A DNA stretch of 35,389 bases, taken from contig QKJV01000479.1 of NCBI GenBank assembly GCA_003249165.1, forward strand, positions 1 through 35,389, in the 5' to 3' direction. The DNA is from Desulfobulbaceae bacterium (GTDB taxonomy: Bacteria; Desulfobacterota; Desulfobulbia; Desulfobulbales; SURF-16). The translations under genes were made by a program, and so were the position numbers. The notes beneath the pieces are model-generated. The model was not told where the DNA came from. It searched no databases and saw only the letters and a list, made by a program, of their open reading frames with translations. Positions 1 through 23,607 of this stretch are shown in pieces (the first letter of the stretch is position 1; each line of letters begins with the position of its first letter).

Positions 1-2
1 AA

Positions 3-182
3 AAAAATGGGATTCATTTCTTTCGTCAAGCCATACTTCGGCATAAGAATTTGACGACTACGGAAAGGTACATAAAAAGAATAAATTCTTTGAGACCAGC
101 TTTGCGGGTTTTGTCTGGAAGAAATAAAAAGCCCACAAAAGGAGCCCTCAAAACAAAAAAGGAGTTAACCATTTTTGGCTAA
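3..182 (+). CDS. Tyrosine recombinase/phage integrase, C-terminal fragment (5' end lies outside the window)
   Basis: Manual translation of the open frame from base 3 gives KNGIHFFRQAILRHKNLTTTERYIKRINSLRPALRVLSGRNKKPTKGALKTKKELTIFG*, stop TAA at 180-182. ILRHKNLTTTERYI fits the (L)xHxxxxTTxxY tail with the catalytic Tyr. Lies next to a tRNA 3' end. Confidence 0.75.
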   Translation, partial: KNGIHFFRQAILRHKNLTTTERYIKRINSLRPALRVLSGRNKKPTKGALKTKKELTIFG

Positions 183-188
183 CTCCTT
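154..188 (-). terminator. Rho-independent terminator for the tRNA-Lys/tRNA-Glu unit
   Basis: On the minus strand AAGGAGTTAGCC-AAAAAT-GGTTAACTCCTT is followed by TTTTTTGTTTT. Arms at 159-170 and 177-188, one imperfect pair. Confidence 0.75.
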
Positions 189-200
189 GAATTTTCTTGG

Positions 201-275
201 CGTCCCCAAGGGGATTTGAACCCCTGTTGCCGGCGTGAAAGGCCGGTGTCCTGGACCTGGCTAGACGATGGGGAC
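201..275 (-). tRNA. tRNA-Glu (TTC)
   Basis: Reverse complement GTCCCCATCGTCTAG...CCGGC-CTTTCAC-GCCGG...GGTTCAAATCCCC...TGGGGACG: acceptor stem, anticodon TTC and T-loop all present. Confidence 0.95.
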
Positions 276-282
276 TTCTTGG

Positions 283-355
283 TGGGTCGTGCGCGATTCG
301 AACGCGCGACTCTCTGCTTAAAAGGCAGATACTCTACCGACTGAGTTAACGACCC
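283..355 (-). tRNA. tRNA-Lys (TTT)
   Basis: Reverse complement GGGTCGTTAACTCAGTCGGTAGAGTA...TCTGC-CTTTTAA-GCAGA...GCGCGTTCGAATCGCGC...ACGACCCA; anticodon TTT. Confidence 0.95.
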
Positions 356-570: not shown

Positions 571-1176
571 ATGGGGCTTTTATCTTCTTCGACGACCTTT
601 GTCCGCTATGCGGTCGAAGGTGAACTGCCGGCTAATTTTCTTGAGTTCGCCACAGAGCGCGTAATGCAGAACGCCTATCGGGATATAGATGATAATTTTG
701 AGGAGCGTTCTGTCGGGTGGGTTTCTGTAATGAACATGTTCGATGCCGCGTTTGAATATGCTTCTTTTTTGGTCGGCGATCATATCGTTCTGACCTTGCG
801 GATTGATGAGCGAAAAGTTGCTCCCAAGGTACTTAAGAAATTTACCTTAAAGGAGGAGGCGCGCTTGCTCAAGGAGAGGCAGATTCCAAAATTGAGCAGA
901 GCTCAGAAGCTTGAAATTAAAGACAATGTAAAACTCATGTTATTGAAGAAAGCGGTGCCGACTCCATCAACATATGATTTATGCTGGAATCTTTCAGAAG
1001 GAACGTTGCTCTTTTTTTCGACCAGTCTGAAGGCCCAGACGGAACTGGAAGACTTTTTCAAAAAAACTTTTGATCTTTCGCTCCGTTTGCAGATTCCCTA
1101 TCTGACGGCGGAGCATCTTCTTAAACCGGAATATCACGACGCCCTTTCCCGGCTTACCCCTGATATCCTGATCTGA
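571..1176 (+). CDS. RdgC-like protein, N-terminal portion (recombination-associated protein family)
   Basis: 201 aa. SVGWVSVMNMFDAAFEYASFLVGDHIVLTLRIDERKVAPKVLKKF and the following Lys/Glu-rich helix resemble RdgC N-terminal and central regions. Confidence 0.6.
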   Translation: MGLLSSSTTFVRYAVEGELPANFLEFATERVMQNAYRDIDDNFEERSVGWVSVMNMFDAAFEYASFLVGDHIVLTLRIDERKVAPKVLKKFTLKEEARLLKERQIPKLSRAQKLEIKDNVKLMLLKKAVPTPSTYDLCWNLSEGTLLFFSTSLKAQTELEDFFKKTFDLSLRLQIPYLTAEHLLKPEYHDALSRLTPDILI

Positions 1177-1870: not shown

Positions 1871-3313
1871 ATGAAGACTATGGAATTTGAAATTGTTATC
1901 GGGCTGGAAGTGCATGCCCAATTGAAAACCAGATCGAAAATTTTCTGCAGTTGCACCACTGAATTCGGCAAACCGCCAAATACCAATACTTGTCCGGTTT
2001 GTCTTGGAATGCCTGGTGTTTTGCCTGTTCTTAACCGACAGGTAGTTGAATATGCTTTGAAAATGGCGATCGCTACTAACAGCAGTATCGGTATGTTTAA
2101 CCAGTTTGCCCGGAAAAACTACTTTTATCCGGATTTGCCTAAAGGATATCAGATTTCTCAGTTTGATCTTCCCATTGCAGAGCATGGTTATGTCGATATT
2201 GAGGTTGATGGAAAACAGCGTCGGATTGGTTTGACCCGCATCCATATGGAAGAAGATGCCGGCAAATTGATTCATGATCATGCCAAGCCGCAGAGTTATG
2301 TTGATCTCAACAGGACTGGTGTTCCGCTGATCGAGATTGTCAGCGAACCCGACATTCGTTCGCCTGAAGAGGCATCAGCCTACCTGAAAAAACTGCATGC
2401 AATACTCCGCTACCTTGATATATGTGACGGTAACATGCAGGAAGGCAGTTTCCGCTGTGACGCCAATATCTCCTTGCGGCCGATAGGGCAAAAGGAATTT
2501 GGAACCCGCACCGAATTAAAGAACATGAACTCGTTCCGAAATGTGCAGCGTGCGCTGGAATATGAGGTTCGACGCCAGCGGGACATTCTGCTTGACGGTG
2601 GCAAGGTGATTCAGGAAACTTTGCTCTGGGATGCCGAACGCAATGTTACAAATTCCATGCGCGGCAAGGAAGAGGCACACGATTACCGATATTTCCCCGA
2701 TCCGGATCTGGTCCCGGTTGTTATTGACGACGATTGGATTAATCGGCTGAAAAATTCGATGCCAGAACTGCCTGATGCCAAAAAACAGCGTTTTATGAGT
2801 GAACTTCAGTTCAACGAGGAAGATGCGGGGGTGCTTACCGGTTCCCGGGAGCTTGCTGACTATTTTGAGTCGGCTTTGAAGCTGTATCCGGATGCCCGAA
2901 TGCTAGGTAACTGGATTAAGACAGAGATGATGCGGGAACTTAAGGGAGAAGACGGCCTGGATATTCGTGCTTTTCCAGTATCTCCAGACAATCTTGCCGG
3001 TTTGCTCTCCTTGATTGATAAGGGAACTATCAGCGGGAAGATCGCCAAAAATGTTTTTGAGGAGATGATGCAGAGCGGCAAGGATGCCCAGACGATCGTC
3101 CAGGAAAAGAACCTTGTTCAGATGAGTGATGCTGGAGATCTGTTGCAGATCGTTCAGCAGATTCTGCAGGATAACCCGCAGCAGGTCGTTGATTTTCAAG
3201 GTGGCAAAACAAAGCTTATGGGCTTTTTTGTCGGCCAGCTTATGCAGAAGACAAAAGGAAAGGCCAACCCGAAGATGGCAAATCAACTTTTTCAGCAGGA
3301 ATTAAACAAATAA
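1871..3313 (+). CDS. gatB: Asp-tRNA(Asn)/Glu-tRNA(Gln) amidotransferase subunit B
   Basis: 480 aa; [65 protein letters not shown]. Confidence 0.97.
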
Positions 3314-21762: not shown

Positions 21763-23220
21763 CTAAAGTGCAGGTTTGGTTTTCACCAAGTCCAGTCGTT
21801 GTTCAAGATTAAAGCCGACACGCAGGAGTTTTTCTTCTTGAAAATGAGAAGCTTGAATCTGCAGACCGATTGGCAGGCCTTCACTGCTGATGCCACACGG
21901 GACAGACATGCCGGGAATACCTGCAAGATTCGCTGGAATAGTCAGTGCATCAGAGAGATACATACTCAGTGGGTCGTGGCTTTTTTCTCCTATCTTCCAG
22001 GCCGGGGTTGGGGTGACCGGCGAGATGAGTACATCACATTCCGTAAAAACTTTTTGATAGTCTTTGACTATTAATGTCCGCACCTGGGAAGCCTTTTTGT
22101 AATATGCATCATAATAACCAGAAGAGAGTGCGTAGGTTCCCATTATGATACGTCTTTTTACTTCATTCCCGAAGCCTTTCGACCGGGTTCTCTTGTACAT
22201 ATCCATCAGCGATTCCGCGCCCATATCCCGCATACCATATTTGACACCGTCGTAACGGGCAAGATTGGAGCTCGCTTCAGCTGGAGCTATAATATAGTAG
22301 GCAGCAACGCCATACTCGGTATGCGGCAGCGAAACGGATTTAATCTTTGCCCCGGCTTCCTGCAGTTTTGTCACGCTGTTTCTGACGGCAGCTTCAACCT
22401 CGGGATCTAGTCCGGGACCGAAGTATTCTTTTGGAATGCCGAGAGTCATGCCTTGGAGGCCATCCTGCAGAGCGTCCACGTAGTCCGGTACTGGTTCATT
22501 GACGGAAGTGGAGTCTTTCGGATCATAGCCACTGATTATATTGAGCATAAGGGCACAATCACGGATATCTTTGGTCAGTGGGCCTATTTGATCTAACGAT
22601 GAAGCATATGCCAGCAGGCCAAAACGGGAAACTCGACCATAGGTGGGCTTTAAACCGACGATACCGCAATGAGAGGCAGGCTGCCTGATTGAACCGCCAG
22701 TATCCGAACCCAGTGAAGCAAAACTTTCATCGGCTGAAACGGCAGCGGCGGAGCCACCGCTTGATCCGCCACAGATGTATTCCTGGTTCCATGGGTTTTT
22801 AGGCACACCGTATGCACAGTTCTCATTGGCTGATCCCATGGCGAATTCATCCATGCTCAGTTTGCCGATTATGATCGCCCCGGCTGCCTCAAGCTTCTCG
22901 ATAACCGTCCCGCTATAGGGCGGGATAAAAGGTTCAAGAATTTTTGACCCGCCGGTGGTCCGCATTCCCTTTGTACAGATAACATCTTTGATCGCTAAAG
23001 GCACACCAGAAAGGGGACCGATCTCATCGCAGTCGATTTTTTTGCCTATTTCTTCTGCCCGGCGCAACGCCCCTTCTTTATCGATGGTGATGAATGCGCC
23101 AATTTTTTCCTCCACGGCACCAATTCTGGAAAAAATTGATTCCGTAACCTGTAAAGGGGTAACTTTTTTTTCAGCTAGAAGATCTTTTAATGCATGTATT
23201 GTTAAACTGTGAAAATCCAT
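21763..23220 (-). CDS. gatA: Asp-tRNA(Asn)/Glu-tRNA(Gln) amidotransferase subunit A
   Basis: PLAIKDVICTKGMRTTGGSKIL, GSSGGSAAAVSADESFASLGSDTGGSIRQPASHCG amidase signature. Start set at the internal ATG (MDFHSLTIHALKDLL); track start is 23256. Confidence 0.97.
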   Translation of the reverse strand: MDFHSLTIHALKDLLAEKKVTPLQVTESIFSRIGAVEEKIGAFITIDKEGALRRAEEIGKKIDCDEIGPLSGVPLAIKDVICTKGMRTTGGSKILEPFIPPYSGTVIEKLEAAGAIIIGKLSMDEFAMGSANENCAYGVPKNPWNQEYICGGSSGGSAAAVSADESFASLGSDTGGSIRQPASHCGIVGLKPTYGRVSRFGLLAYASSLDQIGPLTKDIRDCALMLNIISGYDPKDSTSVNEPVPDYVDALQDGLQGMTLGIPKEYFGPGLDPEVEAAVRNSVTKLQEAGAKIKSVSLPHTEYGVAAYYIIAPAEASSNLARYDGVKYGMRDMGAESLMDMYKRTRSKGFGNEVKRRIIMGTYALSSGYYDAYYKKASQVRTLIVKDYQKVFTECDVLISPVTPTPAWKIGEKSHDPLSMYLSDALTIPANLAGIPGMSVPCGISSEGLPIGLQIQASHFQEEKLLRVGFNLEQRLDLVKTKPAL

Positions 23221-23322
23221 ATTTCCCTCAATGAGCCTTTCGTTTTCTGCAGGCAAAACAGATAATATCAGGCGAAGCTTGATGGCATGCTTTCCGAAAA
23301 TTTAAAAAGTGATAAATTAGGG

Positions 23323-23607
23323 TTAAATGATCCGTGGTACGATAAAAGCCTCGCCATCCTGTCTCGGGCCGTTTGCCAGGGATTCTTCACGTGGTAGTGA
23401 TTCCTTTACTTCATCTTCTCTGAATGCATTATGAATCGCCAGGGCATGGGTTGTTGGCTCAATATCACCGGTTTCTATTTCGTTAAGTTTGGCCACATAG
23501 CCAAGTATACGATCCAGTTGGCCTGTTATTTCATTGATTTCCTCTTCAGAGAGTTCAAGACGGGCAAGATGGGCTACTTTAGCAACTTCTTCTTTCGAAA
23601 TGTTCAT
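23323..23607 (-). CDS. gatC: Asp-tRNA(Asn)/Glu-tRNA(Gln) amidotransferase subunit C
   Basis: 94 aa; ISKEEVAKVAHLARLELSEEEINEITGQLDRILGYVAKLNEIETGDIEPTTHA. Confidence 0.96.
   Translation of the reverse strand: MNISKEEVAKVAHLARLELSEEEINEITGQLDRILGYVAKLNEIETGDIEPTTHALAIHNAFREDEVKESLPREESLANGPRQDGEAFIVPRII

Follow-up and report, generated by a model that had tools for sequence, protein, structure and literature searches.

CIMEs are relics flanked by attachment (att) sites, and grounded prophages are reportedly defective prophage remnants. Inoviruses integrated with att repeats in tRNA genes are a described kind of element (Roux et al. 2019, PMC6813254). The locus analysed here lies at the left end of the window, i.e. 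the whole 35,389-nt stretch of DNA under analysis, which is the entire contig C289 of assembly G000, with base 1 at the contig start. It resembles the tRNA-integrated inovirus prophages in that relatives carry, at the same tRNA, Zot/pI, pVI- and pIII-like, Rep, Xis and CI genes together with a tyrosine recombinase and a tRNA repeat, but it differs from them in that the window keeps only the last ~50 integrase codons and the catalytic region is broken. With the integrases of tRNA 3' ends (phrog_1, PF00589) it shares an intact homologue that matches both profiles and a gene that converges on the tRNA 3' end; unlike in those, the last codons and the stop lie inside the tRNA terminator and the att repeat, and the window copy is short by ~17 residues. 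Two relatives, G012 and G141, resemble the grounded-prophage and CIME relics in that what remains at the tRNA is flanked by att sites and lacks a functional integrase, whereas the other att end of the window element was not found in G000. Taken with the evidence below, the first 182 bases of the window are probably the tRNA-side edge, or scar, of a decayed inovirus prophage that once sat in the 3' end of a tRNA-Glu(TTC) gene. The left end of the window is laid out as follows.

1-26, plus strand: disrupted part, either integrase sequence that has lost 10 and 41 nt (51 nt in all) or a join to something unrelated near codon 300 (alignment, shuffle test)
3-182, plus strand: C-terminal remnant of a tyrosine recombinase (integrase) gene, with the catalytic Tyr in TTERYIKRI (translation, match to relative G005)
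27-167, plus strand: clear collinear homology to integrase codons 301-347 in G005 numbering (tblastn/blastn)
148-230, no strand: inferred attachment core, the equivalent of the 83-nt repeat of G005 (comparison with locus L045)
159-188, minus strand: terminator hairpin of the tRNA operon, 13 pairs (sequence)
198-275, minus strand: tRNA-Glu (TTC), intact, CCA at 198-200, the integration target (ARAGORN)
280-355, minus strand: tRNA-Lys (TTT), conserved neighbour of the target tRNA (ARAGORN)
571-1176, plus strand: conserved chromosomal gene, weakly RdgC-like (order kept in same-genus relatives)

The first 182 bases hold an open frame with the ending ILRHKNLTTTERYIKRINSLRPALRVLSGRNKKPTKGALKTKKELTIFG before its stop. 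Read on the plus strand, positions 3-182 are open throughout and encode 59 aa with a TAA stop at 180-182, giving the translation KNGIHFFRQAILRHKNLTTTERYIKRINSLRPALRVLSGRNKKPTKGALKTKKELTIFG, in which the C-terminal box (L/I)(G/R)H...TTxxY with its catalytic Tyr is present as ILRHKNLTTTERYIKRI. Searched alone, the frame gave no integrase match in Pfam and only phrog_1 (integrase, E=0.02) in PHROG; these profile matches are weak because the tail is short, and it is the comparison with relatives that settles its integrase identity. Against the 351-aa integrase that G005 has at this locus, the tail matched at E=8.7e-22 with 82% identity over residues 8-56, its 47-aa core being 85% identical to this intact homologue, and further matches at about E=1e-9 to 1e-11 were obtained in G012, G034, G011 and G018. 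The 47-aa core matched 47 of the 263 genomes of the order at E<=0.01. The lack of a Pfam match for the frame alone would suit a frame that is open by chance, or a gene of another kind beside the tRNA, but the G005 match comes from the orthologous site of a sister genome and, with the 47 matching genomes of the order, rules this alternative out for practical purposes. Compared with relatives, the frame is unambiguously a tyrosine-recombinase C-terminus, and the preliminary description, which had recognised such a tail and its catalytic Tyr from the sequence, is borne out by the 82-85% identity to the C-terminus of the G005 integrase.

The integrase gene of the window ends at the 3' end of tRNA-Glu with the two genes converging, and its frame runs through the terminator hairpin, the DNA of which encodes the last codons and the stop. 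A distance of 18 bp to a tRNA 3' end at 201 had been given earlier; position 201 is the discriminator base, and with the encoded CCA at 198-200 the gap between stop and CCA is 15 nt. The layout of an integrated element, likewise proposed in the preliminary description, is upheld by the convergence of the integrase 3' end on the tRNA-Glu 3' end and by the occupation of the same site in G005. The attachment core suggested at 201-235 proved too narrow, as the G005 repeat corresponds to window positions ~148-230 and takes in the terminator. Beyond this locus, at window positions 1871-3313 and 21763-23607, gatB lies ~20 kb from gatC and gatA frames (the latter two read by eye) on opposite strands.

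The intact counterpart is found in a genome of the same genus, G005 (JACRCD010000039.1, Deltaproteobacteria bacterium NC_groundwater_1637), at the same tRNA-Glu/tRNA-Lys/RdgC-like locus. Its integrase matches PF00589 at 1.2e-14 and phrog_1 at 1.8e-45, and is followed by an Xis-like protein and then a 413-aa Rep-like protein; the element also encodes a Zot/pI ATPase (PF05707 E=4.3e-20; phrog_197 5.5e-41), an Ace-like minor head protein and a 474-aa pIII-like protein, the labels Rep, pVI and pIII being drawn from weak profile hits and gene order. Divergent genes comprise a CI repressor, an Mrr-type nuclease and, near the far end, a RelE/HTH-like pair. The element is bounded by an exact 83-nt direct repeat (L045 4334-4416 and 16723-16805, ~12.4 kb), which spans the tRNA 3' half, the terminator and the integrase stop. 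The G005 element is an inovirus (filamentous phage) prophage. Within it (L045:4383-16805), the Mrr_cat nuclease gene stands beside CI and the RelE/HTH-like pair at the attL end, and these genes may be cargo for defence or addiction that a filamentous phage carries.

The intact relatives suggest how such an element would enter the site. The attP would sit directly beyond the gene of the phage tyrosine recombinase, which would recombine it with the tRNA-Glu 3' half; the tRNA 3' half and the terminator would then be restored by the copy from the phage (attR), and the old tRNA 3' half would be displaced to the far end (attL), 5-13 kb off. The intact integrase at the locus, the paired repeats and the inovirus genes are observed in relatives; the window itself shows a homologous tail, an intact tRNA and a terminator that overlaps the integrase stop.

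Across the order, members of this integrase family occur in many genomes and mostly adjoin tRNA-Glu 3' ends (TTC or CTC), with a few at tRNA-Asp. At least six genomes (G005, G078, G097, G144, G041 and G146) have them in the company of inovirus genes (Zot, Rep, Xis, CI), and in G005, G108, G078, G122, G041 and G146 the 3' end of tRNA-Glu recurs with a perfect 30/30 match at a distance of 4.9-12.8 kb. In other genomes, for example G061, G108 and G233, no Zot was found near an integrase of the same family within the fetched stretch, so the window may have lost an element of another kind; we nonetheless infer that the remnant stems from an inovirus and not from a different element with the same integrase. 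Searches of GTDB contigs and IMG/VR with the integrase returned only G005 itself and nothing viral, and INPHARED phage records gave no match. The comparison with relatives lacking the insertion, as proposed in the preliminary description, was informative: three genomes of the same genus (G001, G003 and G004) keep the tRNA pair and the flanking gene with no detectable integrase tail, so the simplest reading of the tail is that it was inserted and does not belong to the ancestral locus.

As read, the window gene is broken. Clear DNA homology to the G005 gene stops at about nt 900 (codon 300), the initial ~8 residues, KNGIHFFR, are misplaced relative to the rest of the tail, and about 17 codons are missing. 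An HxxR motif in this frame had been named beforehand as bearing on the recombinase reading, and its letters are nominally present as HFFR but do not lie at the conserved distance of ~32 residues before the Tyr: from the HxxR arginine (Arg-II) to the catalytic Tyr there are 15 residues in the window versus 32 in 22 of the 24 family matches. Because of this spacing the integrase is called not intact; as read it cannot be active, and the window has no functional integrase. An exact match of TCTTTCGTCAAG to the G005 gene favours reading bases 1-46 as integrase sequence with two deletions (10 and 41 nt), a match whose chance level is given by the 63 of 20000 shuffles and the 74 of 10018 window 26-mers that reached it. 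The two-deletion reading thereby has moderate support from the alignment; a single (foreign) joint near codon 300 is a possible alternative. The apparent deletion lies no more than 26 nt from the contig end and could be caused by an assembly error, although the break appears to be real and not an error of the contig end.

The G000 assembly is fragmented (3.5 Mb in 497 contigs, completeness about 91%, contamination 6.5%). An island to the left of the window had been proposed earlier, and the contig was to be extended leftwards; this was tried, and no contig of the assembly was found whose end overlaps the window's left edge. The 26-mer from the contig start had no other copy in the assembly with up to 3 mismatches allowed, and the first 60 nt of the window shared no run of 14 nt or more with any fetched contig. 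The full integrase reading frame that was sought was likewise not found in G000, and neither was its N-terminal half with the first catalytic Arg and Lys (no match at E<=1e-20), and DNA of the G005 element was found in G000 only as the window itself and tRNA-like copies. As neither a Zot nor an integrase N-terminus nor a contig end overlapping the window turned up, the left-hand island is possible but unproven.

These results bear on the alternative that an intact, possibly active inovirus prophage lies just to the left, with circular copies or strain variants having broken the contig and the 51-nt gap being an assembly error. Contigs do break near the same tRNA elsewhere, the G018 contig ending 383 nt past the tRNA, and the window frame stays open to base 3 despite its missing codons, with HFFR nominally matching HxxR. 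However, no Zot and no integrase match at that threshold were binned in the ~91% complete assembly, which holds only an unlinked Rep fragment of this kind, and an intact neighbouring prophage is accordingly considered unlikely in comparison with the decayed one. The Rep fragment is located on C60 (L178), a 3.8-kb G000 contig with a frame-broken inovirus-type Rep of the same family as that of G005 and a transposase gene. It is a genuine inovirus-type remnant, but as it is unlinked it was rejected as the rest of the window element; unless C60 is a contaminant, it implies that an inovirus of that type was once present in the assembled organism.

A second copy of the tRNA-Glu 3' end, which the preliminary description had expected of such an element, was found in G005 and five other relatives, and in G000 only at C339:1953-1997 (93% over 45 nt). 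This contig was rejected as the far boundary, since its terminator and flanking genes differ, its similarity to the genus is weak and it is not linkable to the window. The copy (L046:1953-1997) is an orphan tRNA-Glu 3' fragment at a junction beside an IlvY-like regulator, and is possibly the attL of another element or part of a contaminant contig. Two further contigs were considered and set aside: C472, where an integrase is cut by the contig end, carries a different recombinase type with no match to the family, and C316, with the chromosomal genes that flank the far side of the G005 prophage, has no tRNA or att copy.

Remnants at different stages of reduction were found at this tRNA in other genomes, and comparable scars with flanking att sites occur there in other genera. 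In G012, attL and attR are 390 bp apart with the tail alone in between, and beyond the scar lie conserved chromosomal genes that are Fur-, rubrerythrin- and FprA-like by eye; the same neighbours were found in G011, which has no tail at that place. The G018 tail has an internal stop and gaps. In G008 (L062:2540-4883), a 2.3-kb interval between tRNA-Glu copies contains a degraded integrase tail and a toxin-antitoxin-like (AbiE-like) pair, an AbiEii-like nucleotidyltransferase gene with its partner (by eye). In G141 (L180, C28), tRNA-Glu is separated from a further copy of its 3' end, about 1 kb off, by a mini interval that holds the integrase tail together with HTH and RelE-like genes (by eye). 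Beyond that attL copy in G141, a Cas9-like frame was noted, its RuvC-I motif being read by eye.

The tails of the window, G012, G117, G141 and G242, found in several genera, start at codons 298-303 in G005 numbering (at L050:3223, L180:522, L181:7650, L192:105 and window position 26). This pile-up is prone to detection bias: alignments tend to open on the conserved ILRHKN block, and the shortest tails are missed. G117 shows a clean break, its homology to G108 (93% identity) ending abruptly at codon 303; other remnants break at codons 181-288. The shared start near codon 300 is treated here as no more than a lead. It would fit a window that is the end of a non-autonomous, att-flanked mini-element, similar to a CIME or a satellite, which keeps the tail from about codon 300 onwards for its attP arm and relies on an inovirus integrase acting in trans for its movement. 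Besides the five similar starts, the copies of the tRNA-Glu 3' end 0.4-1 kb away in G012 and G141, the HTH/RelE-like genes of G141 and the toxin-antitoxin-like pair of G008 point in this direction, while the bias of the pile-up, the breaks at codons 181-288 and the stops and gaps of G018 fit plain decay, and such a mini-element is regarded as improbable. Put more generally, the last ~150 bp of inovirus integrase genes together with the tRNA terminator might be a portable attP arm for small att-flanked toxin-antitoxin cassettes and for the window element, which inovirus integrases would move in trans; this would explain why tails repeatedly start near codon 300, but it is similarly doubtful.

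The decayed prophage, the preferred reading of the window, is an ordinary kind of element in a lineage where it seems to be little described. At this one site the genomes form a graded series from an intact prophage to a sub-kilobase scar, and the 3' ends of tRNA-Glu and tRNA-Asp in this deltaproteobacterial order are repeatedly occupied by inovirus prophages with an integrase that has no counterpart in the phage records searched. Were cassettes indeed mobilised in trans, inoviruses would have a part in how toxin-antitoxin cassettes spread. For G000 itself, the finding means that a filamentous phage most likely once sat at tRNA-Glu, and nothing more.
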